From the NCBI GenBank assembly GCA_021324935.1, contig JAJPIE010000042.1, positions 1 through 64,000 of the forward strand: a DNA stretch of 64,000 bases, read 5' to 3'. Numbering within the stretch: the stretch's first letter is position 1; each line of letters opens with the position of its first letter. Of this stretch, positions 433-18,407 are shown in pieces. The position numbers and the translations under genes were made by a program. Source of the stretch: Acidobacteriota bacterium. Its GTDB lineage: Bacteria; Acidobacteriota; Terriglobia; Acidiferrales; UBA7541. Under the pieces are notes generated by a model, which made no database searches, had not been told where the DNA came from, and worked only from the letters and a program-made list of their open reading frames with translations.

Positions 433-2820
433 CTAATTTCCGTGCAGCTGTTCGAACGCCACATTCAGAATCGGATACTTCTGCCAATCCGCGTAATCAA
501 AGTGCCACCATTCGAACGGATACACCAGGAAACCTTCATCCTCCAACGCATGGCGGAGCAGTTCCCGATGCCAGCGTTCCAGCGAAGTGCCGCCGGGATA
601 CCCGGGGAACGAACGCTCGGACATTTCATCGTATACGCCCACCATTTCCACGGGCTTTCCCGTGGAAAGATCGTAGAGGCTCAAATCGACCGCGCAGCCG
701 CGATTGTGGCGCGACCCCTGGCTGGGATCGGCGACGAAAATATGTTTGTCTTCCGGTGTGGCGTCCCAGAAAATTTTCGTGACGTACCACGGGCGGTAAG
801 CGTCGTGAATCAGTAGGCCGTAACCCATGGTTTCCAGTTTTTTCTGCGCACGAAGGAGCGCCTCGGCGGCGGGGCGCTGGAGGAAGGCTGTCGCTTCCGT
901 GTAGACCGGAGTGCTCAGAAAATTGTTGCTGGTGGCGTAGCGGATATCGAGTTTGATTTTCGGATCGAGCTTCGGCAGTTCCACCAGATCCGGCTTGCGA
1001 AACTCCCCCGCTTCGACGGGCGGCTGCGTGGCCAGCGCCTCCTTTCGAAGCTCGTCGATGCTTTTGACCGGAGTGATGCGGAAGATGCCGCCGCTAACTC
1101 CGCCAATCGCGCGGCGCTTGAACACGACTCCACTGACCTTTACTTCGGTGGCATTGCCCTGTGCGTCGCGCTTGAATACGGCGCTCTCCCCGTCGTAAAG
1201 GCCGTGGGTGGGGAATTGGAAGACGTCCTCGGATGCCTGGGTCAGCGGGTCGAACTCCATCCACTCGATGAGGACGTTGAGCCGGTCGTCTTTTTCGAAA
1301 ACATATAGAATGTCGTGATCCCAGCCATACTCGCCCAGCAGTCCTTTCCATTTCTCGCGAACCCCGCCTGGCTTGGGCGGTTCAGTTTTCGCCAGAACCT
1401 TGGATTGGATCTGGAGGCTGTTTGCCAAGGGCGTGACTTGGAGGCCGTAGCCCATCGCGCCATCCGAAATGAGTCCGTCGCCGAGCTGCCGCAGCTCAAG
1501 CTGCTCGCCGCCCGAGATTTTCAACAGCGACACGCGGCCGTCGAGATAACCTAGGTCGAGGGCATCATCGTCGGCGCCGTATCGTCCGGCGAGTCTGCGG
1601 CCTAGATCCTGCGGGACGGGACTCGTCCCTTTCGGCAGAGTCAGAGCCTTGCCGGCTCGCTGGGCCAGTGCCAGGCGCAACGTTTCCTCCCCGATGCGGT
1701 CCGTCACCGCGTTGACAGAATCCTTCGTCGCGATCACTATCACGCCCAACTTGTCTTCCGGCAGCAGGTCCAAGGAAGTGGCGAAGCCATAGATTGCGCC
1801 GCCGTGGCCGACCATCCGGCGGCCCTCAAAGTCGCGCACAATGAAGCCGAGACCAAACACCCAGCCGCCCGGATTTGGATACTGTGGTGACCACATTTTT
1901 TCGAGCGTGGCCGGCTCGAGCAATTGGCCGGATCCCGTTTTGCCCTTCGCCAGCAGGACGCTGGTGAACCTCCCCAAATCCTTCACCGTCGAATACATGC
2001 TGCCCGCGGGAGCCATCCCGAGTTGAAAGGTCGGTGCTTCAAAGGTCTTGCCGTCGTAGGTCCACATCTCAGCTTTGGCGAGATTCCGCACGATTCGCGG
2101 ATCGGGCTCGAAAGAACTCTGTTGCATCCCCATCGGCTCGAGAATGTTGGACTTCAGATATTTGGCGAATGGCTGATGGACCTGCGTTTGGAGGACGTAG
2201 CCGGCCACGGCGATGGCCGCGTTGGAATACTTCGTATGCGTTCCGGGCTCATAAACCAACTGCGTATCGTTCAGGCTTTTAACCGTGGCGGCAAGCGTCG
2301 GTTCGCTGGTTTCGAAATAGTTGCCCACTGGGGGCTCGCGCAGCAGCCCGGAGCGATGCGACATCAGTTCGCGCAAAGTGATGGGCTTGCCAAAAGGATT
2401 TTTCGGTTGGAAATCGGGAAGATATTTGGAGACCGGCGCGTCAAGATCGATTTCGCCGCGCTCGACGCATTGCATGATGCCGATATCGGTAAAGAGCTTG
2501 GAGACCGACCCGATACGATAAACCGTGTCCGCGGTCGCGGGAATTTTCTCCTTGGGATCGGCAAGGCCGAATCCTTGCGCCCAGACGATTTGTTGATCGT
2601 CAACGATGGCGACGGATATGCCAGGAATGCCGGCGAGCGACATCTGCTCTTCGATGAAGGGCTTTAGCGTGCCGACAAGCCGTTGATAGTCCTGCCGCGG
2701 TGGAATATTCGCGTCTTGCGCCCTGGCTGTGCCGAGGCAAACTAACAGGCAAGCAGCGGCCAGCCAGCCCCATTTTCTAGAAACGGCGAAGCGCCTTCTT
2801 GCCGGCAGATTTTTCAACAT
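433..2820 (-). CDS. Fusion protein: class C beta-lactamase-type serine hydrolase + VanX-like D-Ala-D-Ala dipeptidase (M15D)
   Basis: 795 residues, with a signal peptide ending at Ala-Arg-Ala-Gln. The first part (about residues 35-390) is a class C beta-lactamase/D-aminopeptidase fold with SVSK (Ser105, Lys108), a Tyr-Ser-Asn motif and GHGGAIYG. A linker follows. The last ~200 residues match D-alanyl-D-alanine dipeptidases: H705-N-R-G-C-A-V-D712 is the zinc-binding HxxxxxxD motif and E770-W-W-H773 supplies the catalytic Glu and third zinc ligand, with VanX spacing. It is probably periplasmic and cleaves D-Ala-containing peptides. I chose the ATG at 2820 because AAGGAG precedes it; an upstream in-frame TTG at 2838 lacks a site. 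It lies 28 bp after the racemase gene. The two enzymatic halves are normally separate proteins. Confidence 0.88.
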   Translation of the reverse strand: MLKNLPARRRFAVSRKWGWLAAACLLVCLGTARAQDANIPPRQDYQRLVGTLKPFIEEQMSLAGIPGISVAIVDDQQIVWAQGFGLADPKEKIPATADTVYRIGSVSKLFTDIGIMQCVERGEIDLDAPVSKYLPDFQPKNPFGKPITLRELMSHRSGLLREPPVGNYFETSEPTLAATVKSLNDTQLVYEPGTHTKYSNAAIAVAGYVLQTQVHQPFAKYLKSNILEPMGMQQSSFEPDPRIVRNLAKAEMWTYDGKTFEAPTFQLGMAPAGSMYSTVKDLGRFTSVLLAKGKTGSGQLLEPATLEKMWSPQYPNPGGWVFGLGFIVRDFEGRRMVGHGGAIYGFATSLDLLPEDKLGVIVIATKDSVNAVTDRIGEETLRLALAQRAGKALTLPKGTSPVPQDLGRRLAGRYGADDDALDLGYLDGRVSLLKISGGEQLELRQLGDGLISDGAMGYGLQVTPLANSLQIQSKVLAKTEPPKPGGVREKWKGLLGEYGWDHDILYVFEKDDRLNVLIEWMEFDPLTQASEDVFQFPTHGLYDGESAVFKRDAQGNATEVKVSGVVFKRRAIGGVSGGIFRITPVKSIDELRKEALATQPPVEAGEFRKPDLVELPKLDPKIKLDIRYATSNNFLSTPVYTEATAFLQRPAAEALLRAQKKLETMGYGLLIHDAYRPWYVTKIFWDATPEDKHIFVADPSQGSRHNRGCAVDLSLYDLSTGKPVEMVGVYDEMSERSFPGYPGGTSLERWHRELLRHALEDEGFLVYPFEWWHFDYADWQKYPILNVAFEQLHGN

Positions 2821-2848
2821 CCGAGCTCCTTGCTCCAAAGAGAAGAGT

Positions 2849-3973
2849 CTAGTGTGCGGCCTGCTGCGCGCTCCAACGATTGCGGCGCACCGTCAGCTTT
2901 TCGATCAGGTCGCGCTTGACGGCGTAACCCAGGCCGGGCGTTTGCGGTACTTGAATCGTGCCCTTTGCGCTCACTTCGACCGCTGGCTCGATGATGTCTT
3001 CAGTCCAGTAGCGGCGGCTCGCGGACACGTCGCCGGGCAAGGTGAATCCCGGCAGCGTGGACATGGCGATGTTGTGGGCGCGGCCGATGCCTGCCTCCAG
3101 CATGCCACCGCACCAGACGGGAATGTTGCGCTGGCGGCAGGCGTCCTGCAATTCGCGGGCCTCGGTATGACCGCTGACGCGGCCCAGCTTGATGTTGATG
3201 ATGCGGCACGCTTTCAACTCGATCGCGGTCAGCGCCTGGCGCGTATTGTGGATGCATTCGTCAAGGCAGATCGCGGTTTGCATCTGCGCCTGCAATTTGG
3301 AATGCGCGTAGATGTCGTCCCAATTGAGCGGCTGTTCCATCATCAGCAGCTTGAAATCGTCAAGTTTTTTCAGGTGCGTGGCGTCATCCAGGGTGTACGC
3401 GGAGTTCGCGTCCACAGAAAGAAGAATATTGGGATATTCTTTGCGGACGGCGGCGACGTAGTCGAGGTCCTTGCCAGGCTTGATCTTCAGTTTGATGCGC
3501 TGATACCCGCTGCGAAGTTCTTCTTCTACTTTCTTTACAAGAGACGCGGGATTTTCGCGGATGCCCAGCGAGACGCCGCAGGCTATCTCCTGAATGCTGC
3601 CGCCGAGAAGTTTCCAGAGAGGAAGGCCCTTCATCTGCGCTTCAATGTCCCAGAGCGCGTTTTCGAGCGCACTCTTGGCCATCTCGTGCCCACGAATGGG
3701 AGACACCAGTGCGGGGATGTCGGAGGCTTTGCTGAGCGTCTTTCCGATCAAGGAAGGCGCGATGAAATCGGAAATGACGTGCCACGCCGTGTCGGTTGTT
3801 TCGGAATTGTAGGCGGGTGTCTCTCCGGCGGTGACCTCGCCCCAGCCCCGCACGCCGTCGGCGATGATTTCCACTTCCAGAATGCGGCGATTCAGCGTGG
3901 TGCCGAAGCTGGTTTCGAACGGCGACTTCAGCTGCATGCGGATTTCGCGGAGTTCAATCGATTCGATCTTCAT
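2849..3973 (-). CDS. menC: N-succinylamino acid racemase / o-succinylbenzoate synthase-like enolase-superfamily enzyme
   Basis: 374 residues, a full-length member of the MenC/NSAR branch of the enolase superfamily. The N-terminal capping domain contains the typical SPFETSFGT segment (residues 17-25). The barrel carries the catalytic set K161-L-K163, D188, E213, D238 and K262, almost the numbering of the Amycolatopsis OSBS/NSAR enzyme (K163, D189, E214, D239, K263). Such enzymes make o-succinylbenzoate for menaquinone or racemise N-succinylamino acids. No other men genes are present, and the gene overlaps a GNAT acyltransferase gene by 20 bp, as in the Geobacillus D- to L-amino acid pathway, so racemase is the better guess. 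L-Ala-D/L-Glu epimerase is less likely from the N-terminal sequence. Cytoplasmic. Confidence 0.85.
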   Translation of the reverse strand: MKIESIELREIRMQLKSPFETSFGTTLNRRILEVEIIADGVRGWGEVTAGETPAYNSETTDTAWHVISDFIAPSLIGKTLSKASDIPALVSPIRGHEMAKSALENALWDIEAQMKGLPLWKLLGGSIQEIACGVSLGIRENPASLVKKVEEELRSGYQRIKLKIKPGKDLDYVAAVRKEYPNILLSVDANSAYTLDDATHLKKLDDFKLLMMEQPLNWDDIYAHSKLQAQMQTAICLDECIHNTRQALTAIELKACRIINIKLGRVSGHTEARELQDACRQRNIPVWCGGMLEAGIGRAHNIAMSTLPGFTLPGDVSASRRYWTEDIIEPAVEVSAKGTIQVPQTPGLGYAVKRDLIEKLTVRRNRWSAQQAAH

Positions 3974-4724
3974 AAGGCTCCAGAATGTAACTTCCCTGAT
4001 CTGGGGTGAATTCAAATCCGACTGCGGCGCGGCCGGCGGCAATGCACTGGCCGAACTGCTCGCGCACCTCGGACTGGATCGCTTCGGCCCGCGGGGCATC
4101 TTCGGTGCAAATCTGGCGGATGTTGCTGGGAATCGAGATGCAAACCGTTTTGCTGCCTGGCGTGAGGCGTTTTCCTTGCAGCGTTTCTTCCACGTGAGGT
4201 GATTGCAGCCACCACTCCGCAACCAAGCGATCCGTGGGAAGTCCGGCGTGCAGCGGGCTGGTCGTGCGGCCGTACACGTTAGGCAGATAGCGGCGGACAA
4301 TCGCGCCGAGCCGGGCCAGGTTGAAATGCGCGTTCTTGAGTTGCAAGGGATCGAAGGTCCATTCGATCAGAGGGATGCCGCGCGCAATGGCGTCGTCACG
4401 CTGCGCAAGTTTCAGCAGGCGGCCGACGCCACGGTCCTGGTATTCGCGCAAAACTCCAACCATGTGGGAATGAAGGTACGGCTTCCCGTCGTGGATTCCC
4501 GCGTAGGCGAGCGCGAAGCCGGCGGGAGTTTCTCTGTCGTACGCTGCTAACACCTGGCCCCCGCTTTCGCGGGCCACGACAAACATCTGATCGGGCACGG
4601 TGTCGAGATCCGCATAACCCCACACGCGCTTCTGCAAGTCCACGGCGACACGCATTTCTTCAATGCTTCGCAAAGGGCGCACTACGATGTCTGGCTTAGC
4701 CGGGGTTGTGCTTGCACGGGTCAA
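3954..4724 (-). CDS. GNAT-family N-acyltransferase (probable amino-acid N-succinyltransferase partner of the racemase)
   Basis: 256 residues of the COG3375-like GNAT type. The acyl-CoA binding motif A is visible as V-x-x-x-Y-Q-D-R-G-V-G-R-L-L (about residues 91-104), followed by an IEWTFDPL motif typical of this subgroup. Start is a TTG immediately after the permease stop (TAG-TTG on the minus strand), with AGGAG 8 nt upstream inside the permease gene. The 3' end overlaps the racemase gene by 20 bp, so translation is probably coupled. In Geobacillus kaustophilus a GNAT succinyltransferase plus NSAR plus a desuccinylase convert D- to L-amino acids. The same role is inferred here; no desuccinylase lies in the window. 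Confidence 0.75.
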   Translation of the reverse strand: MTRASTTPAKPDIVVRPLRSIEEMRVAVDLQKRVWGYADLDTVPDQMFVVARESGGQVLAAYDRETPAGFALAYAGIHDGKPYLHSHMVGVLREYQDRGVGRLLKLAQRDDAIARGIPLIEWTFDPLQLKNAHFNLARLGAIVRRYLPNVYGRTTSPLHAGLPTDRLVAEWWLQSPHVEETLQGKRLTPGSKTVCISIPSNIRQICTEDAPRAEAIQSEVREQFGQCIAAGRAAVGFEFTPDQGSYILEPYEDRID

Positions 4725-6101
4725 CTAAATTTCTCCTTCCGCCAGCGAGCTTGTCGAACGGCGCCAGAACAAATATGCCGGTGCGCCAAGAAAGACGATG
4801 CCAAGCCCAATTGCGGCCCGAACGGGTTGCGAGACGACGGTGTTCGCGACCAGAGCCATCGCCGCCAGGACGAAAATTGCGGGTGTCCACGGATATCCGG
4901 GCACGCGGTAAGGACGCACGGCATCTGGCCGGCGGGTCCGGTAAACGAAGACGCTGCCGGCGGCTAATGCGTAAAACAGCCACCCGATAAAAACGACGTA
5001 AGTGAGCAACTGCTCGAATGTGCCGCTGACGGCTAGAGCCGAGGACCACATTCCCCCGGCAACCACGGCAAGCGCCGGAGTTTCAAATTTCAGATGAATT
5101 TGCGACAGGGAATGAAAGAAGAGGCCGTCCTTCGCCATCGCGTAATAGACGCGAGGCGCATTAAGCATAATCGAATTTGCCGCGCTGAACATGGAGATCA
5201 GAATGGCCACGGCGACGATTTTACCGGCTCCATGGCTGACGACGACGCCCAGGGCCGAGGCGGCCACGCGATTGGAAGAAGCGACTCCCTGGGGGCCGAG
5301 CGCAGCGAGATAGCCGAGATTCGCGATGAAATAAAGAGCGATGAGGCTGGCCGTTCCGATGAGGAAAGCGAGAGGGAAAGTGCGCTGGGGATTCACGGTT
5401 TCCCCGGCGCTGAAGGTTGCATACTGCCACCCTTCATAGGCCCAAAGCACGCTGACCATTGCCAGGCCCAAGCCGGAGACTCCCGCTGGCGTGGAATGGG
5501 GAGACGCGGCCCCGCCAAATATGGGATTTATGCCGCGCCAGAGGAGGAGCACGCTGACGCCAAGAATGGCGGCCACTTTTACGATCGTGGTGACGTTGAG
5601 CAGGTTCGCGCTTTGGCGCGTGCCGCGCACATTGACGATGCCGATCACCAGGATCATCAGGACGGCCACGGCTTTTGTTCCGAAGGCGGAAAGTTCCACG
5701 AATTCGCCGAGGTAATTGCCAAAGGCGACGGCCAGGGTGGCGATGGAGCCGGAGCTGATGACGAAGAATAACGTCCAGCCAAAAAGAAACGCAGCGAAGG
5801 GGCCGAAGCAATCGTGGATGTAAACATACAAGCCGCCGGCTTCGGGCTTCATCGCGCTCAGTTCGCCATAGGTGAGGGCGCCAAATAGCGAAAGGACTCC
5901 GCCGCCGACCCAGACGGCCAATGATTCGGGAACGGAATTGTTGACGGCGCGCAGGATAGGGCCGGGCACCAGAAAGATACCGGAACCGATAACAGTACCC
6001 ACAATCATAAAGGCGAGGTCCCAGGTGCCAAGGACGCGGGGAAGCGCGCGAGGACGGGCAACGTTCGAGCGCTCGCCAGGCGCGTGGGGCGCCCGTTTCA
6101 T
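4725..6101 (-). CDS. APC-superfamily amino acid permease
   Basis: 458 residues with about 12 hydrophobic segments. The first helix carries the APC signature IVGTVIGSGIFLVPG (about residues 33-47), the unwound substrate-binding segment of amino acid/polyamine/organocation transporters, and a conserved YGELSAMKPEAGGLYVY block follows. It would import amino acids, possibly D-amino acids given the downstream enzymes. I chose ATG 6101 (AAAGGG 5 nt upstream) rather than an upstream in-frame TTG at 6185, because that TTG is the -35 hexamer of the predicted promoter. It is the first gene of a tight minus-strand operon with the GNAT, racemase and beta-lactamase/VanX genes. Confidence 0.87.
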   Translation of the reverse strand: MKRAPHAPGERSNVARPRALPRVLGTWDLAFMIVGTVIGSGIFLVPGPILRAVNNSVPESLAVWVGGGVLSLFGALTYGELSAMKPEAGGLYVYIHDCFGPFAAFLFGWTLFFVISSGSIATLAVAFGNYLGEFVELSAFGTKAVAVLMILVIGIVNVRGTRQSANLLNVTTIVKVAAILGVSVLLLWRGINPIFGGAASPHSTPAGVSGLGLAMVSVLWAYEGWQYATFSAGETVNPQRTFPLAFLIGTASLIALYFIANLGYLAALGPQGVASSNRVAASALGVVVSHGAGKIVAVAILISMFSAANSIMLNAPRVYYAMAKDGLFFHSLSQIHLKFETPALAVVAGGMWSSALAVSGTFEQLLTYVVFIGWLFYALAAGSVFVYRTRRPDAVRPYRVPGYPWTPAIFVLAAMALVANTVVSQPVRAAIGLGIVFLGAPAYLFWRRSTSSLAEGEI

Positions 6102-6156: not shown

Positions 6157-6185
6157 GGAATACAACAGGTGTTGCAGTCTGTCAA
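6157..6185 (-). promoter_or_regulatory. Promoter of the permease operon with embedded operator
   Basis: On the minus strand TTGACA (6185-6180), a 17-bp spacer and TATTCC (6162-6157). The spacer ends with CAACACCTGTTG (6174-6163), a near palindrome touching the -10. The regulator gene has the same arrangement in the spacer of its own promoter (9931-9959), so this is a probable repressor site. Confidence 0.65.
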
Positions 6186-6246
6186 GATGATTCACGAGGC
6201 GTTGCATGGCATGCATCAGAAAAAGTTATTGAGAGCATTTGAAATG

Positions 6247-6258
6247 CAACACGTGTTG
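6247..6258. promoter_or_regulatory. RpiR-type operator candidate, perfect palindrome
   Basis: CAACACGTGTTG is a perfect 12-bp palindrome matching the CAACA-NN-TGTTG element found in the permease promoter. It is centred about 45 bp upstream of the receptor -35 box and about 67 bp upstream of the permease -35 box. Confidence 0.5.
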
Positions 6259-6296
6259 TCCGCAAGCGGATAACGGTGAAATCGCGCAGATTCTTA

Positions 6297-6325
6297 TTGA
6301 CATCCCGTATTGTGGACCATAGACT
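6297..6325 (+). promoter_or_regulatory. Sigma-70-type promoter for the first Oar-like receptor gene
   Basis: A perfect TTGACA (6297-6302), a 17-bp spacer and TAGACT (6320-6325, 4 of 6 matches). The predicted transcript starts near 6332, giving a leader of about 120 nt before the ATG at 6452. Confidence 0.5.
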
Positions 6326-6354
6326 CCGCCCAATCACGACCCTCTCTTGCAAGC

Positions 6355-6368
6355 GCAACGATTGTTGC
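6355..6368. promoter_or_regulatory. RpiR-type operator candidate downstream of the receptor promoter
   Basis: GCAACGATTGTTGC has 5-bp inverted arms and fits the CAAC(A/G)-NN-TGTTG pattern with one arm mismatch to the strict consensus. It lies about 25-35 bp after the predicted start of the receptor transcript, a position suited to roadblock repression. Confidence 0.45.
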
Positions 6369-6451
6369 ATGACAAGCCACGATGCAGCTGCTACAAGATG
6401 CGCCGGCAGATCCTGAAAGGGGAGGGGCGTTCCAACAGGGGGACTACGAAG

Positions 6452-9400
6452 ATGGAGAAGTACGGGGTGTTGTTCGGATTCCGCTTGAATTCCAATTCTT
6501 TCTTGCTCCTGCCGGCGGTGCTGCTTCTGCTTGCTTTCTCGGTTCTTTCGCCGGCTTTGTTGCACGCACAAACGACTTCCACAATTACGGGAACCGTTCA
6601 GGATAAACAAGGCCTTACTGTTCCCGGCGTCAAGGTGAACGTCAAAAACGTCCAGCTGGCGATTGATCGAACCGCAACCACCGAGAATGACGGCACGTAC
6701 CGCTTCGCCGCCCTGCCCCCAGGCCTATACGAAATTACCGTCTCCAAAACCGGTTTCCAGACGGAGACGTTCAAAGCGATTGAACTAACACTCAACCGCA
6801 CCCTTGTCTACGACGTGGTGTTGCAGGTGGGCTCGACGAACCAGACGGTGGAAGTGAGTTCGGCGGCGCCCCTGCTCGAGACCACCAGCTCTTCAACCGG
6901 CAGCACGATCACTCCGCGACAAATTGAGGACATGCCAATCAACGGACGCAACTATCTTGACCTGCTGCAACTGGTGCCGGGAGTCGCGCTGAATCGGCAA
7001 AACGATCCCAATGGAGACAACTCGACGCCAATTCTTGGTGAGCGCGGCGGCAACACTCTATACCTGATTGACGGCATGCCGAATCGCGACAATTTCAACG
7101 GCGGCCCTTCGGCACAGTTCAACCAGGATTCCATCATGGAGTTTCAGGTCGTGACTGGCGGCTATAAGGCCGAGTTTGGCCATGCCTCGGGCGGCATTGT
7201 GAACGTGGTCACGCGCGGCGGTACGAACGATTGGCACGGCGGCCTTTCCGTGTTCTACCGCAGCAACGCCTTCGATTCCAACAATATTCCTGGAGCCGGC
7301 ACCGGCGCGCCATTCCTGAATCGCTGGGATCCGACCGTTTATTTTGGCGGACCGATTCTGAAGGACAAAATCTTTTTCTTCGGCTCTGCGGAACGCATTC
7401 TGGAAAGCCGAAACCTGAACTTTGTCTTCAATCCGAATTTGCCATCCACCCTGGTGGCCTTTGAAGCCCCGTTTAACAAAAATGCGCAGACTTTTACTAC
7501 CCGCGCCCGCGCCAAGTTAGACGAAAACTTGGGGCCGCATCGCTTGAGCGAGCAGATCAATTACACCAACAACCACATCACGTATTTCCTGCCGCTGACC
7601 GCGTCCTTGAATCTCCCGGACACGCGGTACAACATCGATGGCCGGACGTTGACGCTCGGTTTCAACGACGTCTGGACCATCGGCGATGTTTCCAGCGCTT
7701 GGATCGTGAATTCCTATTTCCAATACCGGGGCAATCCGACGCGGCAGAGTCCCTGTTGTCCGGAAGCGGGCACACCGAACACGTTGTTCAACCTGTTCTC
7801 CACCTACACATCGGGAGACCTGTTTGGCGATCAGGGGCAGGCATCGTTCGGACCCGGCTATAACTCCTTCACATTCTTTGAAAAATATTATTCGGGTGGT
7901 AGCAACGTCAGCAAAGTCTTCGGCCACCACACGGTGAAATTCGGCTGGGACTACGAACACACTGGCGTGAACGGCGCGGAGCCAAACAACTTTTTCACCC
8001 AGCTCTTTTCTACTATCAATGATTTCAACACCTTCGGCCCTGTCAATTCCGGACTGAACTTGATTACTTTGCAGGGCGGACAGACCCCGCAAGATAACTT
8101 GGTAAATATCAACAACAACTATGCTGGACTTTTTCTCCAGGACGACTGGAAGATCACCTCGAAAATCACGCTGAACGCGGGCTTGCGCTGGGATTACGAT
8201 TCAGAATTCCCGAACAAGACGGATTTCTCGCCGCGCATCGGCGTGAACTGGGCTCCCAACTCGAAGACCGTAGTCAGCGCCAGCTTCGGAACCTTCTATG
8301 ACCAGTTCCGCGAGGGCGTGGCGCGCGACATACCCGGCTTCGGCGGTGCCAATATCCAGCGCGAACGCTTGCTGTCGTTCCCGCGGCTGTTCTACGGGAA
8401 TCCGACCATTCTGACGAGCTACTTTCAGTCCCTGGGACGCCCGACCGTGTGCGTCTCCAACAATCTGACTCAGTCGCAAATCACCCAGCAGGGGCTGACG
8501 TGTCCGAACGGCCTCGGCACAACGCTCTACGGAATCGATTATCTGAACAGCGTTGTCGCTTCCGGTCACGCGCCCATTCCCGCGAATACTCCCGTCAATA
8601 TAAACAACATCCAGCAATTGAGCGGATACACGCCAGACCAATTCCTCACGGCGGCGGATGCTGCCATTGCCAATCTGGCCGGAACGAACAAATCGATCAC
8701 CGTTCCGGCAAATTACTGGGGCTGGGATCCCTTTGGAAACCTCACGACCATCGGCGGCATTAATGGCACCGCGGGATTGGTGCCCATCACCGTCGACCCG
8801 GGCTTCAAGGTGCCGCACACCTTCAACTATCACGTGGGTGTGCAGCGCGAAATGGCCCCGGATCTGGTGTTCACCGTCGATTACTACCACAAAGACATCG
8901 AGGACATCACCACGGTGCGGGCGACAAACTTGGCCTTCGAGGCGCGCATGCCCGGTCACACCAATGAGCTTGTGCCCGGAACCGGCTCGACCCGAATTGA
9001 AAGTTATGGGCCCTGGGGAGCCGGCACATACGACGGCTTCACCATCGGCATGCAGAAAAGAATGTCACACAGCTTCACCGTGCAGGCATCTTATACCTAT
9101 ACCCACGCGACCGACGACGTCTTGAATTCAACGCTATCGAGCGAAGTTCAGAGCGGCGAAGGCGTGAACTTTCTTGCTATCACTGGCCTTTCCGACAGTT
9201 ACGTCGGGAAGGTGCCCGTCGTTACCGATTCGAATACCGGACAAACCAACGCCAACGGCGCGTTCGTCAACAGCCTGGGCAACTTCGTGCCGAAAGCAGG
9301 AACCTTCTATAACGGCGCAAAGATTGACGGCGGGCCTTCCGATTTGTCGCTGGCGGAGACGTTCCTGGTCAACGCCATTGTCGAACTTCCATGGAAATTC

Positions 9401-9772
9401 GAAATCGCCGGCATTTTCCGCGCACAGAGCGGATTCCGCTACAGCGTGGGACCCGCCAGCGGAGGACCGGACTTCGATGGGGACGGACTCTTCAACGGCC
9501 AGGGCTTGTACTTCGACGGGTTTGGGACTCCGTTGTTTGCCCGGAATTCCCAGACCGCTCCGGCATTTGTAAACATGGACATGCGCCTCTCCAAGCGATT
9601 CAACATCGGCGAGCGCATCAAGGGGCAGGTCCTCTTTGAGATGTTCAACCTGTTCAACCGTGACAATCCGGCGGCTGTGCAGACTCTTCAGGGCGGCACT
9701 CCCAGCCTGGGCTCAACGTTGCAATACTTGCCGGGCAGGGAAGGGCAAATCGGCTTGAGGTTCGATTTCTAG
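6452..9772 (+). CDS. Oar-like TonB-dependent outer-membrane receptor (first copy)
   Basis: 1106 residues. A long signal peptide ends around Leu-His-Ala-Gln (residue ~40). Next comes a carboxypeptidase-regulatory-like domain (about 42-130), then a plug domain with the Oar-type motifs PINGRNYLDLLQLVPG and GHASGGIVNVVTRGGTN, then a large beta-barrel ending in R-F-D-F with a terminal Phe typical of outer-membrane beta-signals. Such acidobacterial receptors take up large substrates (oligosaccharides, peptides) through the outer membrane; the substrate is not visible. ATG 6452 is preferred because a hydrophobic signal follows at once, although its ribosome binding site (CAGGGGG) is weak. It has its own promoter and flanking operators, divergent from the permease operon. 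Confidence 0.88.
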   Translation: MEKYGVLFGFRLNSNSFLLLPAVLLLLAFSVLSPALLHAQTTSTITGTVQDKQGLTVPGVKVNVKNVQLAIDRTATTENDGTYRFAALPPGLYEITVSKTGFQTETFKAIELTLNRTLVYDVVLQVGSTNQTVEVSSAAPLLETTSSSTGSTITPRQIEDMPINGRNYLDLLQLVPGVALNRQNDPNGDNSTPILGERGGNTLYLIDGMPNRDNFNGGPSAQFNQDSIMEFQVVTGGYKAEFGHASGGIVNVVTRGGTNDWHGGLSVFYRSNAFDSNNIPGAGTGAPFLNRWDPTVYFGGPILKDKIFFFGSAERILESRNLNFVFNPNLPSTLVAFEAPFNKNAQTFTTRARAKLDENLGPHRLSEQINYTNNHITYFLPLTASLNLPDTRYNIDGRTLTLGFNDVWTIGDVSSAWIVNSYFQYRGNPTRQSPCCPEAGTPNTLFNLFSTYTSGDLFGDQGQASFGPGYNSFTFFEKYYSGGSNVSKVFGHHTVKFGWDYEHTGVNGAEPNNFFTQLFSTINDFNTFGPVNSGLNLITLQGGQTPQDNLVNINNNYAGLFLQDDWKITSKITLNAGLRWDYDSEFPNKTDFSPRIGVNWAPNSKTVVSASFGTFYDQFREGVARDIPGFGGANIQRERLLSFPRLFYGNPTILTSYFQSLGRPTVCVSNNLTQSQITQQGLTCPNGLGTTLYGIDYLNSVVASGHAPIPANTPVNINNIQQLSGYTPDQFLTAADAAIANLAGTNKSITVPANYWGWDPFGNLTTIGGINGTAGLVPITVDPGFKVPHTFNYHVGVQREMAPDLVFTVDYYHKDIEDITTVRATNLAFEARMPGHTNELVPGTGSTRIESYGPWGAGTYDGFTIGMQKRMSHSFTVQASYTYTHATDDVLNSTLSSEVQSGEGVNFLAITGLSDSYVGKVPVVTDSNTGQTNANGAFVNSLGNFVPKAGTFYNGAKIDGGPSDLSLAETFLVNAIVELPWKFEIAGIFRAQSGFRYSVGPASGGPDFDGDGLFNGQGLYFDGFGTPLFARNSQTAPAFVNMDMRLSKRFNIGERIKGQVLFEMFNLFNRDNPAAVQTLQGGTPSLGSTLQYLPGREGQIGLRFDF

Positions 9773-9911
9773 CCGGCGTCAATCGCATTTAGAGAGAAAG
9801 GACGAGGGCGCTTCGTGGCGGAGTATCGCCCGCTGGGAGGCGCCCCGCTTTCTTTCCGGGTTCCCCGGCGGATTGCCGGGCCAAGCGAGGATTTACAGCT
9901 TCGATTAAATG
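9773..9911. other. Intergenic stretch with one GC-rich hairpin
   Basis: This stretch follows the first receptor gene. A 6-bp perfect stem (CCCGGC, 5-nt loop, GCCGGG) lies at about 9867-9883, but no T run follows it, so it is only a weak terminator candidate. Nothing else is evident before the operators at 9912. Confidence 0.3.
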
Positions 9912-9959
9912 CAACAAATATTGAAATCTCTTGACAAACTGCAACAAGCATTGTATTTC
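9912..9959 (+). promoter_or_regulatory. Promoter and double operator of the RpiR-family regulator gene
   Basis: TTGACA (9931-9936), a 17-bp spacer and TATTTC (9954-9959). The spacer ends in CAACAAGCATTG (9942-9953) directly against the -10, exactly as in the permease promoter. A second copy, CAACAAATATTG (9912-9923), lies just upstream of the -35. This indicates autoregulation. Confidence 0.6.
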
Positions 9960-10071
9960 GCTTACACAGCTTTGGGGTCGTCGGTTCCTTGCCGGCGAAT
10001 GGCGCCGTGGGGTGATTTCCCGCAGAGTGGGCGGGCGCGCGGTGAACCCGGCAAAACCGAAGGAGTGGTCG

Positions 10072-11022
10072 GTGGCGAAATCAGCAAAAGGGAAGCGTGT
10101 ATCCGCCAAGCGGTCGAACTCCGCCCACAAGGGACAAACCAGCCTGGAAGCGCGCTTTGCGCAGGCGCAGGACAAGCTCAGCCCCAGCCGGCGCAAACTG
10201 CTGCGCATGATCCTCGAGAACCCCGAAGATACGTATTTCCTCTCCTCCCGGGAACTCGCAAAACGCTACGAAGTAGACGCAGCGACCATCGTGCGGACGA
10301 TTCAGGTCCTCGGCTACGGCAAATTCGCAGACTTCCTCTCCGACCTGCGCGCCCACTTTGTCACCCGCATCACGCCATACGCCGTCCTGAAAGCCGCTTC
10401 CCAGGAAAAAAAGACGCTCGCTGATCGCATCCGGCAGAGCCTAGACCTCGACATGCGCAACCTCCAGGCGCTGCACTCCCGGATCGACCCCGAGCAGATC
10501 AATCGACTCGCCAAGCGCGTAAAAGACTCCCAACGCATTTTGATTATCGGCATCGATCTGGCCGCGGCGCTGAGCTGCTATCTGGCCTACGGCTTGATGA
10601 CCCTCGGCTTTCCCGCGGAGGCGCCGGTGGGCAGCACGGGAAACGTGCAGCGTCGCGTGCGCACGCTGAACCGCAAGGACCTGTTGATTGCCATCAGCTT
10701 TGGCCCTTGTCTGCGAGACACTGTCGAGGCGGCGCAACGCGCCAAGCAGCAGGGCGTGCCCACATTTGGAATTACGGACAGCGAGACAACTCCGATCGCC
10801 CGCGTTTGCGACGAGTTCTGCATCGCGTCGACCGCGAGTTCCTCCTTCGGAGGCTCTTACGTTGCACCGATCGCCCTGTTGGGCGCCATTTTTGTGGCCT
10901 GCGCGCAGACCCAAACCAAGCGTTCCTTGCAGCTTCTCCGCCGAAGCGAAGAAGAAGACCGCAAGGATCACCGGTGGTTCGAAGCCTCGCCGGACAGCCG
11001 CGCGACCTGGAATTCTGAATAG
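10072..11022 (+). CDS. RpiR/MurR-family transcriptional regulator (HTH + SIS)
   Basis: 316 residues. A basic N-terminal tail leads into an HTH_6-type DNA-binding domain (about residues 27-105, including SSRELAKRYEVDAATIVRTIQVLGYGKF in shorter motifs), followed by a SIS domain (about 140-275). The SIS phosphate-binding loop, usually S-x-S-G-x-T-x-E, reads S209-F-G-P-C-L-R-D216, so the residues that hold sugar phosphates are largely missing. The GTG start at 10072 has AAGGAG 6 nt upstream; a longer frame would begin inside the promoter and is rejected. It lies between two Oar-like receptor genes and probably represses them, the permease operon and itself through the CAACA-NN-TGTTG sites. The effector is unknown. 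Confidence 0.85.
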   Translation: MAKSAKGKRVSAKRSNSAHKGQTSLEARFAQAQDKLSPSRRKLLRMILENPEDTYFLSSRELAKRYEVDAATIVRTIQVLGYGKFADFLSDLRAHFVTRITPYAVLKAASQEKKTLADRIRQSLDLDMRNLQALHSRIDPEQINRLAKRVKDSQRILIIGIDLAAALSCYLAYGLMTLGFPAEAPVGSTGNVQRRVRTLNRKDLLIAISFGPCLRDTVEAAQRAKQQGVPTFGITDSETTPIARVCDEFCIASTASSSFGGSYVAPIALLGAIFVACAQTQTKRSLQLLRRSEEEDRKDHRWFEASPDSRATWNSE

Positions 11023-11071: not shown

Positions 11072-14000
11072 ATGCAAATTCATATTCTTCATAAGTCCAG
11101 GCCCCTCGGCTTTCTGCTGGCCGCGTCCTTCGCTGCTCTTTTTAGTGTGACCCCGGCTCTCCTGGGCCAAACCACTTCCACGATCAGCGGGAGAATCACG
11201 GACAAACAGGGGCTAGCGATCGCTGGGGCGGAGATCCATGTCGTGGGCAAGACTGTTGTAGCCGACCACAGCGTGCAAAGCGACACCGAAGGAGCCTACC
11301 GCGTTCCCGCGCTGCCGGCCGGTGCCTATACACTGACGGTGTCGCACGAGGGCTTCCGGCAACAGGTGCTGACCGGCCTGGAAGTGACGCTGAACCGCAC
11401 CCTGAATATCGACGTGCAACTCGAAGTCGGCAGCACGCACGAACAGATACAGGTCACCGGCGAGCTCCCTCTTCTGGAGACGCAAAGCTCCGCCTCGAGC
11501 ACCACCATCATGCCCCGCCAAATCTCGGACATTCCCTTGAATGGAAGAAATTACCTGGACCTGCTGCAGCTCGTGCCCGGCGTTTTGATCAGCAGCCAGA
11601 ATAATCCGGGAAACGGCACGAACGCCGACAACTCCCAATCGGTGCTCGGCGAGCGCGGGAATAACACCGGTTACCTCATCGACGGTTTGCCCAACAATAA
11701 TCAGATTACCGGCGGCCCCGCCGCGCAATTCACTCAGGATACGATCGCCGAATTTCAGGTGCTCACCAGCGGATATTCGGCGGAGTTCGGCCATGCCTCG
11801 GGCGGCGTAGTGAACGTTATTACGAAGTCCGGTACCAACGACATTCATGGGCTCGCTTCCGCCTTTTACCGCAGCAGCGCATTCGATAGTTCGGACAATT
11901 CCCTCGGCGTGCCGGAGCTGCTTCGCTGGGATTACACCGCCGCGCTTGGCGGGCCGATCATCAAAGACAAAGTATTCGGCTACATCTCCGGCGAGGGAAT
12001 CCATGAGAACCGGGCTCTCAACTATCAGATTCCCGCGGGCACGCCCCAGGTCATCATCGACCAGGAGGCGCAATACAATTCGCCCTCCACGGACCGTGAA
12101 GCGCGCTTGTTCGGGCGTTTCGATGAAAATCTCGGCCGCCATCACCTTTCCGAGGAATACAACTACACCAACGCGCACATCGGAAATTATCTGCCGCTTT
12201 CCAACTACACGGCTTTGCCTTCCAACCGTCAAAACTACGGAGCACGAAGCTCGCTCTATGGCGCGAACGACACGGTGACCCTCGGCGATTCGGGGAGCCC
12301 ATGGATTCTGAGCCTCCGCGGCGGTTACCGGGAAGACACGACCGGGCAGCAGTCCGCGCATCCCCAGGCTGGACCGTACACGCTCTACAACGTATTTCAA
12401 ACCGTTGATTCGGGGGCGCTATTCGGGAGTCCGCAAATCACCTTTGGCTCCATTACTTCGCCTTCCAACCTGGACCAGAAATACGGATTCCTCGGCGCGA
12501 ACATGGCGAAGACGATTGGCCGGCACACCATCAAATTTGGCTGGGATTACCAGTACAGCCATATCGATGGTGTGGAAGCCAATCTCCAGGAGAACCAGCT
12601 TTTCGCCACCGTCTCCGACTACCAACAGTTTGGCCCGATCGACTCTGGGTTCTTCTTGCTGGAAACTGTCGGCGGGGCCACCCCGCAGGCAAATCAGATT
12701 CATCTCCGAAACAACTACAACGGCATCTATGGGATGGATGACTGGAAAATCCTGAAAAATCTGACCATCAACTACGGACTGCGCTGGGACTACGATAGCA
12801 AGTTCAACGATAAGACGGAGTTTTCCCCCCGCGTCGGCTTTGCCTGGTCCATCAATTCCAAAACCGTTTTGCGCGGCAGTTGGGGATTGTTCTATGACCA
12901 GTTTCGTCTGGGTATCGCGCGCGATGTTCCCGGATTTGGCGGCGCCGATCTTCGCACCATCCAGCCGCTCTCTTATCCGCGGTTGTTCTACGGCGTTCCC
13001 ACGATTGCCCCTGTTTTATTTCCACCTTTCTTGTGCCTGTCGCCCACTATGACGGATGCGCAATTGGCGAGTTCTGGCGCAACGTGTCCCTTCAGCGCTC
13101 TCGTTGGCCCCGTGCCCTATTACGGCGTTGACCACCTCAATAATGTCGTGGCCCCTGGCCATGCCCCGATTCCCGCCAACTCCGTTGTAAATCAGGGCAA
13201 CATCCAGCAACTTTCCGGGTTCAGCCCGGCCGACTACCTTACGGCTGCGGACGCCGCCATCGGCGTCACACCGACCTCGTCGGATGCCCTGTTCTGGGGC
13301 CCGTTCGGAGCCCTTTCTTACCTGGTGAATCCCGCGGGATCGTATCCCGTCACGATCGATTCTCGCTTCAAAACTCCTTACACCAACGGCATGAACGTGG
13401 GACTTCAGCGGGAGGTGAGCAACGATTTCGTGGTCGCCGTGGACTACTATCACAAAAACATCAACGACATCCTCGGCATCCGCCAAACCAATCTGCCGTT
13501 CGAATCGCGCATTGCGAATAACTTCTCCGGAGTTTATGTGAACGGCTTTGGGCCTTGGTACTCCGGCTTGTACGACGCGGGCATTCTCTCGTTCGAGAAG
13601 AGAATGAGCCACCACTTCTCCATGGGAGGCAGCTATACCTTGGCCAACGAGCGGGACAATGCCTTGTGCTCCGGCCTGGATTCCACCCTCACTGGCGTCT
13701 GCTATCCCACGGACAGCTTTGTCGGTGTGCCACCTGTGGTTACCGACCCCGGGAACATTTCCACGGGCGGCACCTGCAAGGGAGGCACGAATGCAACCGC
13801 CGGATTCTTCGCTTGCAACGGTAACTGGGTTCCACAAGCTGGCAAGTTCTATAACGGAGCCAACCTTGACAAGGGGCCTTCCGACTTTGCCATTCGTCAC
13901 AACTACCAAATGCACGCGTTGATCGAACTGCCCTGGAAATTCGAATTCAGTACGATCTTCCGGGCACAAAGCGGTTTCCACTACACGCAACAGTCGCAAG

Positions 14001-14296
14001 CCCCGATCGATCAGGACGGCAACGGAAATTACAACTCTCGCGATTTGAAAACGGGACGCAATCAGTTCGTATCGCCGAACTTCGTTAACATGGATCTGCG
14101 GGTGATGAAGACGTTTCCCATCGGCGATCACGTTCAAGTTCAAGGCATGTTCGAATTTTTCAACCTTTTCAACAATGCCAACCCCGCGGCTATGAACCTG
14201 CTCCAGAACTTGCCGCCGACTGTTACGAACTTCGGCACCGTCGCGCAATTCCTTCCGGGGAGGGAAGGGCAGTTCGGCCTGCGCGTGATCTTCTAA
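11072..14296 (+). CDS. Oar-like TonB-dependent outer-membrane receptor (second copy)
   Basis: 1074 residues, a paralogue of the receptor at 6452. The signal peptide ends near Leu-Leu-Gly-Gln, followed by a carboxypeptidase-regulatory-like domain (about 32-120), a plug with PLNGRNYLDLLQLVPG and GHASGGVVNVITKSGTN, and a barrel ending ...G-L-R-V-I-F with terminal Phe. Barrel blocks such as YDQFR, IARDVPGFGGA and PGREGQ are shared with the first copy, while the loops differ, suggesting related but not identical ligands. A good site (GGAGGAG, 8 nt) precedes ATG 11072. Only 50 bp separate it from the regulator gene, so both probably share the autoregulated promoter at 9931. Confidence 0.88.
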   Translation: MQIHILHKSRPLGFLLAASFAALFSVTPALLGQTTSTISGRITDKQGLAIAGAEIHVVGKTVVADHSVQSDTEGAYRVPALPAGAYTLTVSHEGFRQQVLTGLEVTLNRTLNIDVQLEVGSTHEQIQVTGELPLLETQSSASSTTIMPRQISDIPLNGRNYLDLLQLVPGVLISSQNNPGNGTNADNSQSVLGERGNNTGYLIDGLPNNNQITGGPAAQFTQDTIAEFQVLTSGYSAEFGHASGGVVNVITKSGTNDIHGLASAFYRSSAFDSSDNSLGVPELLRWDYTAALGGPIIKDKVFGYISGEGIHENRALNYQIPAGTPQVIIDQEAQYNSPSTDREARLFGRFDENLGRHHLSEEYNYTNAHIGNYLPLSNYTALPSNRQNYGARSSLYGANDTVTLGDSGSPWILSLRGGYREDTTGQQSAHPQAGPYTLYNVFQTVDSGALFGSPQITFGSITSPSNLDQKYGFLGANMAKTIGRHTIKFGWDYQYSHIDGVEANLQENQLFATVSDYQQFGPIDSGFFLLETVGGATPQANQIHLRNNYNGIYGMDDWKILKNLTINYGLRWDYDSKFNDKTEFSPRVGFAWSINSKTVLRGSWGLFYDQFRLGIARDVPGFGGADLRTIQPLSYPRLFYGVPTIAPVLFPPFLCLSPTMTDAQLASSGATCPFSALVGPVPYYGVDHLNNVVAPGHAPIPANSVVNQGNIQQLSGFSPADYLTAADAAIGVTPTSSDALFWGPFGALSYLVNPAGSYPVTIDSRFKTPYTNGMNVGLQREVSNDFVVAVDYYHKNINDILGIRQTNLPFESRIANNFSGVYVNGFGPWYSGLYDAGILSFEKRMSHHFSMGGSYTLANERDNALCSGLDSTLTGVCYPTDSFVGVPPVVTDPGNISTGGTCKGGTNATAGFFACNGNWVPQAGKFYNGANLDKGPSDFAIRHNYQMHALIELPWKFEFSTIFRAQSGFHYTQQSQAPIDQDGNGNYNSRDLKTGRNQFVSPNFVNMDLRVMKTFPIGDHVQVQGMFEFFNLFNNANPAAMNLLQNLPPTVTNFGTVAQFLPGREGQFGLRVIF

Positions 14297-14408
14297 TTTG
14301 TATGTACCATGTCTGATTCATGCAACGGTATCCAACTCATTCCAGAAAAGCCGGGCGACCGGCTTTCCCATTTTTGTGAACGGCGAGCGTTTCGGGGGGA
14401 GCATGAAA

Positions 14409-16391
14409 ATGAACTGGGAAACGAAAAGTCTGCTTGTCTTGGTATTCGCGGGTATAGCCGCAGGTTCACTGGTGCTGGCGCAGACCGCCGAGAAAACAAA
14501 GGAAGCGGCGCGGGCCGTCGCTAAGGTTGAGGAGCCATCCACCGCCTCCGCGGCAGGTGGCCATGCCTTGACCGCCGAAGATCTGGAAGCGTTTCTGGAC
14601 GGCATGATGCCCGCGCAATTGAACCGCGAGGACATCGCCGGCGCGGTGATTGCCGTCGTGAAAGACGGCAAAGTAATTTTCGCGAAAGGCTACGGCTATT
14701 CGGACATGGCCAAGCGCACCCCCGTCACGCCGGACGCCACGCTCTTCCGCCCCGGCTCGATCTCCAAGCTCTTCACCTGGACGTCCGTGATGCAGCTGCA
14801 GGAGCAAGGCAAGCTGGATCTCGATAAGGACGTGAACTTCTACCTCGACTTCAAAATTCCTCCGGCGTTCGGCCAGCCGATTACGCTAAACGACATCATG
14901 ACGCATACGGCGGGATTCGAAGAGACCGCGAAGGACTTGTTTGTGGCCGACGCGCAGCACATGACTCCCCTGGACCAGTATTTGAAAGAACACATGCCGA
15001 AGCGGATATTTCCGCCGTTTGTCGTGCCCGCCTATTCCAATTACGCCACCGCCCTGGCCGGCTACATCGTGCAGCGCGTCTCCGGCAAGCCTTTTGCGCA
15101 ATACGTTGCGGACAATATCTTCACCCCACTCGAGATGACCCGGACGACATTTGTGCAGCCCCTCCCCGACAATCTGAAGCCCATGATGTCGGACGGCTAT
15201 CAGAAAGCCTCGGGCAAGGCGAAACCCTTCGAGTTCGTGGAGGCGTATCCCGCAGGCAGCGTTTCCACCACCGCACGCGACATGTGCAATTTCATGATCG
15301 CGCACCTGCAGGACGGAAAGTTTGGCGACAAACAAATTTTACGCCCCGAAACCGCCCAGACGATGCACGCGCGGCTGTTTGACGCGGATGACCGGCTGAG
15401 CGGTATGGCCCACGGATTTTACGAGGAAACCCGCAACGGGCACCGCATCATCGGCCACGGCGGCGACACGGAATTTTTTCACAGCGATCTGCATCTGATT
15501 CTCGACCAGAATGTCGGATTTTTCGTCTCCTACAACAGCGCGGGGAAGGGCGAGGTGAGCCCGCGAACCATTCTGTTCGAAAGCTTTCTCGACCGGTATT
15601 TTCCCTACACGCCGCCTGCTCCGGGAAAAGTGTCGGACGCGAGGGCCGACGCGGCGCAGGTTGCGGGACTCTACAAAACGAGCCGCCGGTTCGAATCTTC
15701 GTTCCTGAAGATGCTCACCCTGGCCGGAGAGCCGAAGGTCAGCGCCAATGCCGACGGCACGATCAGTATCGACGAGTTGAAGGCCCCGAATGGAGTGCCG
15801 AAGAAATTTGAAGAAATTGAACCTTTTTTATATCGGGAAGTGCATGGTCAGGATAAAGTCGGCTTTAAAAAGGATACAAATGGTGACTGGCAGTTCCAGA
15901 TGGATTACCCGTTTTTCATTTTCCAAAGAGTTGGGCTGCTGGAAAACAAATATTTCAATCTTGCCCTGCTGATATTCGGCCTGACGGTGGTGCTGCTGAC
16001 CGTGGTGTTTTGGCCGGTGGGCGCGCTGATTCGCAAGCACTATGACAAGCCGCTGGCGCTCTCGCCGCAAGAGAAGGGCCAACGCCTTTGGGCGCGGATC
16101 GTCTGCCTGTTGTTCGTCATTCTTTTCGTCGGCTGGCTGCTGGCTATCTCGCAAGCGAACGACATTGCGGGAATCAACGGACTGCCGCCATGGGTGCTCG
16201 TATTCGGAGGGCTCGGCCTGATCTGCTCAATCGGCACGATCTTTGTGGTCGTCAACGCCCTGCGCTCCCTTAAGGTGCCCGGCCGGTGGTTCTGGGCGAA
16301 AGCGCACGACGTGCTGCTCGCGGTGGCGTGCCTGGGCCTGGTCTGGTTCCTGTTCACTTGGAACCTGATGAACTTCAATACGCATTTCTAA
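14409..16391 (+). CDS. Class C beta-lactamase-family serine hydrolase with C-terminal membrane domain
   Basis: 660 residues. A signal anchor or signal peptide (about 5-22) leads to a serine hydrolase domain (about 55-430) with SISK nucleophile motif, a Tyr-Ser-Asn motif and GHGGDTEFF. A lipocalin-like segment follows, and the last ~160 residues contain four hydrophobic helices (LIFGLTVVLLTVVFW; IVCLLFVILFVGWLLAI; WVLVFGGLGLICSIGTIF; VLLAVACLGLVWFLF). Relatives act on D-amino acid peptides, esters or lactams; the substrate is unknown. ATG 14409 has GGGGAG 7 nt upstream; an ATG two codons earlier is too close to it. It sits about 110 bp after the second receptor gene and is probably cotranscribed. 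The membrane tail is unusual for the family. Confidence 0.85.
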   Translation: MNWETKSLLVLVFAGIAAGSLVLAQTAEKTKEAARAVAKVEEPSTASAAGGHALTAEDLEAFLDGMMPAQLNREDIAGAVIAVVKDGKVIFAKGYGYSDMAKRTPVTPDATLFRPGSISKLFTWTSVMQLQEQGKLDLDKDVNFYLDFKIPPAFGQPITLNDIMTHTAGFEETAKDLFVADAQHMTPLDQYLKEHMPKRIFPPFVVPAYSNYATALAGYIVQRVSGKPFAQYVADNIFTPLEMTRTTFVQPLPDNLKPMMSDGYQKASGKAKPFEFVEAYPAGSVSTTARDMCNFMIAHLQDGKFGDKQILRPETAQTMHARLFDADDRLSGMAHGFYEETRNGHRIIGHGGDTEFFHSDLHLILDQNVGFFVSYNSAGKGEVSPRTILFESFLDRYFPYTPPAPGKVSDARADAAQVAGLYKTSRRFESSFLKMLTLAGEPKVSANADGTISIDELKAPNGVPKKFEEIEPFLYREVHGQDKVGFKKDTNGDWQFQMDYPFFIFQRVGLLENKYFNLALLIFGLTVVLLTVVFWPVGALIRKHYDKPLALSPQEKGQRLWARIVCLLFVILFVGWLLAISQANDIAGINGLPPWVLVFGGLGLICSIGTIFVVVNALRSLKVPGRWFWAKAHDVLLAVACLGLVWFLFTWNLMNFNTHF

Positions 16392-16433
16392 GACGTGCTG
16401 CAAATCTGTTTGCGTAGCGAGAGGGGGACCCCC

Positions 16434-18230: not shown

Positions 18231-18407
18231 TTGGAAGTTAGGGCCGCTCGATTGGGCGAATGCCGAAATCCGTTCGTTGAGCTGGTTGCGAAATCCACTG
18301 CCTTCGAGCGCCGGCATCGTCTCGATCACAAACAGACTGCTTTGTTTCGTTGTATACACCGTCGCAGTTCTCCCTCTTCATCTTCGTTTGCGGGAAAGGA
18401 GCTGCTT

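Follow-up and report, generated by a model that had tools for sequence, protein, structure and literature searches.

We analysed a 64,000-nucleotide stretch from an Acidobacteriota bacterium (hereafter the window: positions 1 to 64,000 of contig JAJPIE010000042.1, in a genome of 4.5 Mb and 95 contigs), in which a gene cluster at about 0.4-18 kb includes the gene of an RpiR-family regulator. The cluster consists of a minus-strand operon encoding an APC permease, a GNAT acyltransferase, a racemase of the N-succinylamino acid racemase/o-succinylbenzoate synthase (NSAR/OSBS) type and a β-lactamase/VanX fusion protein; a divergent TonB receptor gene; and, beyond the latter on the plus strand, the RpiR gene, a second TonB receptor gene, which is probably co-transcribed with it, and two serine hydrolase genes (Table 1). 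Variants of one palindrome, TGCAACA-NN-TGTTGCA, recur at the predicted promoters of the RpiR gene, the permease operon and the first TonB receptor. We consider it very probable that the RpiR protein binds this palindrome at all three and that the cluster forms a local, autoregulated repressor regulon.

The first-pass annotation of this DNA described permease and RpiR promoters of the same design (TTGACA, a 17-bp spacer and a weak, TAT-rich -10 element), with a CAACA-N2-YRTTG element directly against the -10 in both, and counted five such sites, among them a perfect palindrome at 6247-6258 and copies at 6356-6367 and 9912-9923. We find all of these where it placed them, and an alignment of the sites lengthens the palindrome to 16 bp. 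Its notion of an operator built into the promoter spacer holds for the permease and RpiR promoters; at the TonB receptor, two operators instead flank the promoter.

Table 1. Features of the RpiR locus in the window; promoters, operators and protein functions are predicted.
Feature	Position	Strand	Remarks
Permease-operon promoter	6157..6185	-	TTGACA 6185-6180, 17-bp spacer, TATTCC 6162-6157
RpiR promoter	9931..9959	+	TTGACA 9931-9936, 17-bp spacer, TATTTC 9954-9959; design kept in orthologues
TonB-receptor promoter, TTGACA-17-TAGACT	6297..6325	+	Lies between two operators
Operator TGCAACAAGCATTGTA, filling the -35/-10 spacer of the RpiR promoter	9940..9955	+	
Upstream operator TGCAACAAATATTGAA	9910..9925	+	30 bp from the RpiR spacer operator; 28-32 bp spacing conserved
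Operator TGCAACACCTGTTGTA in the permease promoter spacer	6161..6176	-	Best site of the genome, 1 mismatch
Weak operator TGCAACGCCTCGTGAA	6191..6206	-	4 mismatches; 30 bp upstream of the permease spacer operator
Operator TGCAACACGTGTTGTC	6245..6260	.	Inner palindrome perfect; at about -80 of the TonB promoter, 84 bp from the permease spacer operator
Operator CGCAACGATTGTTGCA	6354..6369	+	At about +30 of the TonB promoter, 109 bp from the operator at 6245
RpiR-family regulator	10072..11022	+	316 aa, HTH_6 + SIS; GTG start; AAGGAG at 10060-10065
APC-family amino-acid permease	4725..6101	-	Gene 1 of the minus-strand operon; Pfam PF13520
GNAT acyltransferase	3954..4724	-	Pfam PF00583; putative D-amino-acid N-acyl/succinyl transferase
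Enolase-superfamily N-succinyl/N-acylamino acid racemase or o-succinylbenzoate synthase type enzyme	2849..3973	-	NCBIfam TIGR01928
Serine β-lactamase/AmpH-like domain fused to VanX/DdpX-type D-Ala-D-Ala dipeptidase	433..2838	-	Pfam PF00144 + PF01427; NCBIfam
TonB-dependent receptor with CarboxypepD_reg domain	6452..9772	+	Pfam
Second TonB-dependent receptor	11072..14296	+	Pfam; 49-bp gap to the RpiR gene
Two β-lactamase-fold serine hydrolases, same direction	14298-16391, 16395-18230	+	NCBIfam, Pfam

Within the window, the compound pattern TTGACANNNTGCAACANNNRTTGTAT occurs, at up to three mismatches, only at the permease and RpiR promoters, with 0.01 occurrences expected. The 12-mer alone is not enriched over the whole window (17 matches at one mismatch vs 11.9 expected), so that the 16-mer and its clustering are needed as the signal. 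Genome-wide, the 16-mer TGCAACANNTGTTGCA is found at 220 sites with up to three mismatches, vs 225 for the reversed control; five of the 220 lie inside these 4 kb, where 0.19 are expected (Poisson P ~2e-6), and at up to two mismatches four of about 18 do so, where 0.015 are expected (P ~2e-9), both P values being post hoc because the motif was derived from these very sites. All of the 11 other sites with up to two mismatches that were examined lie within predicted coding sequence, and we reject a large regulon in this genome on that ground. Operator clusters are present only at this locus, beside the sole RpiR gene detected, whose product is also the only HTH_6 protein found in the genome.

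The first-pass annotation had staked its proposal on conservation of the motif upstream of orthologues, and on this count the proposal stands. We collected 80 RpiR loci from GTDB genomes, nearly all of them Acidobacteriota; among the 78 used to count upstream sites, 36 have an operator within 300 bp upstream of the RpiR gene, vs one of 78 for the reversed pattern. When 53,248 spaced palindromes were scored de novo, with no motif supplied, in the upstream regions of 72 RpiR loci (the six nearest relatives removed), the same motif was recovered: GCAACA-N2-TGTTGC came out on top, at 17 loci (mean 0.06), and the operator was present at 30 of the 72 loci vs a mean of 0.7 (maximum 10) for permuted half-sites. 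Close relatives of the RpiR protein (50-77% identical) also have operators, and their intergenic alignments keep the block TGCAACAAATATTGAAATCTCTTGACANNNTGCAACANNCGTTGTA in surroundings that have diverged. The motif follows RpiR through several Acidobacteriota classes, and weaker sites with three mismatches precede RpiR homologues in one Woeseiaceae and one Deltaproteobacteria genome. Operators are found as well at orthologous permease genes (in genome G020 and, in another genus, G343) and at NSAR/GNAT and TonB genes.

A reverse search, in which RpiR was not used in the query, was made with the compound TTGACA-N3-operator pattern in 399 genomes of the class and returned 14 places, vs none for the reversed control. 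Of these, 13 fall at genes of the regulon: RpiR, the APC permease (including one from a second genus), GNAT-NSAR, or the region separating a TonB receptor gene from an S13-amidohydrolase gene. Around the remaining place, the 3 kb examined contain no regulon gene. The conserved orthologue sites and the placement 3 nt from TTGACA support the earlier proposal that the permease, TonB and RpiR promoters belong to one regulon, and the position of the operators points to autoregulation and repression by RpiR. From these observations, we regard the circuit as real and apparently undescribed, with a layout that recurs in many genomes of the phylum.

Two promoter layouts can be distinguished. In layout A, seen at 31 distinct promoters, the operator begins 3 nt after TTGACA and reaches as far as the first bases of the -10; most of these promoters, those of RpiR and the permease included, have a second operator 28-32 bp upstream. 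It is this rule that predicts the sixth, weak site at the permease promoter, which the earlier annotation did not list. In layout B, the two operators are 107-113 bp apart and, at 10 of 11 such loci, flank a TTGACA-17/18-TAnANT promoter whose TTGACA lies 51-54 bp from where the upstream operator starts; since the DNA between the operators is only 29-60% identical between loci (mostly about 35%), it is the spacing that is conserved. Pairs of sites within 250 bp number 68 for the motif, in discrete spacing classes, and none for the reversed control. The 84/109-bp arrangement of the window, formed by the permease spacer operator and those at 6245 and 6354, recurs in G031, G006 and G017. Symmetric arrays of four operators, spaced 43-109-43 bp, occur at three divergent regions (L187, L192 and L193), and those of L187 and L192 lie between an RpiR gene of a class with 36-40% identity and a TonB receptor gene.

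In group 4 Acidobacteria (L086-L097, L102), the operator drifts to TGCRRCAnnTGCnGnA with the TTGACA-N3 and 28-30 bp placements kept, possibly through co-evolution of motif and recognition helix. In the class of 36-40% identity (L060, L065, L062 and others), the RpiR gene often stands after ilvD-ilvB-ilvN-ilvC, genes of branched-chain amino acid synthesis, and before NSAR and VanX. In G020 (L191, G020:C3, ~9060-9290; L238 1281-1427), a short RpiR remnant sits between the operator and the APC permease gene, which suggests that the permease took over a promoter formerly driving rpiR; its counterpart in G031 continues to drive rpiR-GNAT-NSAR.

Because the operator of layout A fills a 17-bp spacer of optimal length, bound RpiR would act there as a repressor. 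In layout B, the pairing of an operator at about +30 with one at about -80 suggests a loop like that of the E. coli gal operon, where the promoter likewise sits between two operators roughly 110 bp apart: those of gal are separated by 113 bp and lie at -60.5 and +53.5 (PMC4693257). GalR, however, is a member of another regulator family, and both the loop and the bridging by a tetramer are predictions from site spacing. We think it unlikely that RpiR, when bound to these sites, mainly activates, or that it has a dual role with ligand-dependent tetramerisation, although activation could make use of the upstream operators (at -80, or 30 bp from the core) and a precedent exists: Streptococcus pneumoniae NanR is an activator that its ligand stabilises as a tetramer, for which contact with a half-site at a distance of 23 bp has been proposed (PMC12713135). 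A spacer-filling operator and one near +30 are both placed as in repressors. MerR-type activation, moreover, acts on promoters whose spacer is not of optimal length, unlike the spacer found here.

Neighbouring genes in relatives, mapped with a codon-scored gene caller, indicate what is controlled. Operators precede NSAR-GNAT pairs, TonB receptors, serine hydrolases, an M23 peptidase, a D-aminoacylase and class A β-lactamase-like proteins; the last of these stand beside operators at L184:5099 and L193. M20 and M1 peptidase genes lie within the clusters, and the regulon also includes an S13 D-Ala-D-Ala carboxypeptidase fused to a D-aminoacylase-like amidohydrolase (L191:2325-5576 and L185:5914-8989; Pfam). 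The commonest neighbours across the 80 loci are TonB receptors, VanX-type or serine hydrolases, NSAR and D-aminoacylase. This target set suits the scavenging of peptidoglycan D-amino acids and peptides. Next to the hydrolase genes of the window, at 18231-19665 on the plus strand, an Amidohydro_3 gene is split over two frames with about 160 profile positions absent between them, and is either a degenerate D-aminoacylase-like gene or an assembly fault.

The operon racemase scores 336.9 against the NSAR/OSBS model TIGR01928 (cut-off 200.65), and its KLK, DAN, EQP, DE and K motifs, with the catalytic lysine pair and the metal ligands, align with those of 2zc8 and 1sja, two N-acylamino acid racemases that are its closest solved structures. 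An L-Ala-D/L-Glu dipeptide epimerase was considered for this enolase-superfamily enzyme and rejected in favour of the NSAR/OSBS model because the epimerase score, 97.8, is far under its cut-off of 500. A second racemase/OSBS paralogue, 57% identical, is located at G000:C16:5875-6975 and is common in related genomes too; the copies examined in relatives have no operators. For the GNAT protein, a search for structural relatives found no solved one, and gene order with the racemase suggests its role in D-amino-acid N-acyl or succinyl transfer. In the Geobacillus-type pathway, NSAR, a succinyltransferase and a deacylase turn D- into L-amino acids. The cluster resembles this system in that the NSAR/OSBS-type enolase adjoins a GNAT and amino-acid transport, with M20 and D-aminoacylase in related loci; it differs in the predicted RpiR control, the TonB receptors, the VanX fusion and the lack of an identified M20 gene beside the racemase in the window.

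The regulator itself has the N-terminal HTH_6 domain (PF01418, 39.8 bits; cut-off 28.3) and C-terminal SIS domain (PF01380, 53.8 bits; cut-off 25) of its family, and the fold of its AlphaFold2 model matches NanR, MurR, RccR and 3sho in Foldseek. With NanR of Vibrio vulnificus, MurR of E. coli and RccR and HexR of Pseudomonas it has in common these domains, fold or sequence matches, palindromic operators and local or autoregulated control. Its predicted operator differs from those of HexR (TTGT-N7-8-ACAA) and RccR (TGTAGT/ACTACA; PMC5489143) and of S. pneumoniae NanR (TCTGAAAGTACTTTTAGA; PMC12713135), and its score with the HexR model NF008451 is 47.4 against a cut-off of 296. In the four RpiR proteins whose mechanism has been studied, a conserved phosphate loop binds phosphosugars (PMC12713135), a trait of the structurally studied members and not of the Pfam definition. 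Here, the SxSGxT/S motif of this loop is replaced by ISFGPCLRD (ISF[GR][RQP][CG]L in homologues), and the targets are D-amino-acid and peptide genes in place of sugar genes. The serine of the first-loop GxGxS motif of NanR and MurR is replaced by aspartate (GIDLAA); this Asp162 is invariant in 79 of 79 homologues, and the position of Arg215 is occupied by arginine in 68, glutamine in nine and lysine in two. Given the loss of the phosphate loop, and with an invariant aspartate and a mostly conserved arginine in the corresponding loops, the ligand is probably not a sugar phosphate; it is probably a D-amino acid, a dipeptide or an N-acyl-D-amino acid. We hypothesize that the aspartate and the basic residue in the SIS loops could hold an amino acid or peptide.

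These substitutions bear on the idea that the protein is a MurR-like sensor of a peptidoglycan sugar phosphate (MurNAc-6-P), with the D-amino-acid genes as a side branch of cell-wall recycling. MurR is the RpiR protein of cell-wall recycling, and the targets here do process peptidoglycan peptides, but we identified neither a sugar kinase gene nor an etherase or PTS gene in the cluster, both of the loop motifs are lost, and the score with the MurR equivalog model NF012026 is 43.2 against a cut-off of 408; we judge this sensor improbable. It is very improbable that an unlinked factor, of the LacI/GalR or CRP type for example, binds the palindrome and controls the same genes with RpiR as merely one target: operators of relatives do control genes distant from RpiR as well, some RpiR loci lack a nearby site and a 16-bp operator with gal-like spacing would fit GalR/LacI proteins too, but the motif tracks RpiR over several classes and, more weakly, into the Woeseiaceae and Deltaproteobacteria, no operators were found at the racemase loci of four same-order genomes without a detected RpiR, and the intergenic operators of the window's genome lie only around rpiR, as for a local, self-controlled factor.

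We stress that several points weigh against a repressor regulon for D-amino acids. At 42 of the 78 loci, the 300 bp before the RpiR gene contain no site; some of these loci have operators farther off in the operon, and in part of the 36-40% identity class no operator could be found. All of the promoters are consensus predictions, and some RpiR proteins activate, so that induction instead of repression is possible. The second SIS loop was part of one search pattern, so that some of its conservation among the 79 homologues is due to selection by the search. In the part of the window that was studied, we identified no M20 deacylase; the acyl group and the direction of the D-to-L conversion are inferred, and NSAR rather than OSBS activity is predicted.

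For the repressor regulon that we favour, we propose the following mechanism. The RpiR protein would bind the palindrome TGCAACA-NN-TGTTGCA. At the RpiR and permease promoters (layout A), protein bound to the spacer operator and to the second operator 30 bp upstream would block RNA polymerase, and at the TonB promoter (layout B) a tetramer would probably bridge the operators at about -80 and +30, 109 bp apart, into a repression loop. The ligand would lift repression and so induce the genes for taking up and processing D-amino acids or short peptides from peptidoglycan. TonB receptors, serine peptidases and VanX would release and import these, the APC permease would bring them inside, and acylation by the GNAT together with racemisation by the NSAR would turn D- into L-amino acids. 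Comparison of genomes shows the motif, its conservation alongside RpiR, the two layouts and which genes are targets; from these we infer binding, repression, looping and the direction of the pathway.

Open-access text yielded no publication pairing TGCAACA/TGTTGCA with RpiR, and broader searches gave other motifs only, consistent with the remark in the first-pass annotation that no motif of this form was known for RpiR proteins; the literature searches made also found no RpiR regulon described for Acidobacteriota. The passages found on OngR (PMC9537276) describe a MurR/RpiR repressor of oxidised-chitin catabolism encoded beside D-aminoacylase and D-amino acid deaminase genes, and thus likewise tied to enzymes of the D-amino-acid type; its substrate, GlcNAc1A, and its gene set differ from those considered here, and its operator is not described in these passages. 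The regulator belongs to a known family, but its operator and target pathway appear to be new, and its ligand is probably of a new class too. More tentatively, and with rather less than even confidence, we suggest a phylum-wide RpiR subfamily that has lost the phosphate loop, senses a D-amino acid or peptidoglycan peptide through an Asp/basic SIS pocket, and controls D-amino-acid scavenging by a 30-bp spacer tandem and a gal-like 109-bp loop. If true, this group of RpiR proteins would be the first to combine an effector of the amino-acid type with repression by looping.

Few RpiR operators are known, nearly all of them tied to sugar phosphates, and Acidobacteriota are one of the commonest soil phyla. 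With an operator, two layouts and a coherent set of targets predicted, with statistics from dozens of genomes, the regulator, motif and pathway become directly testable. The regulon would carry RpiR signalling beyond sugars to D-amino acids or cell-wall peptides, and it points to how soil bacteria may turn on the use of bacterial necromass.

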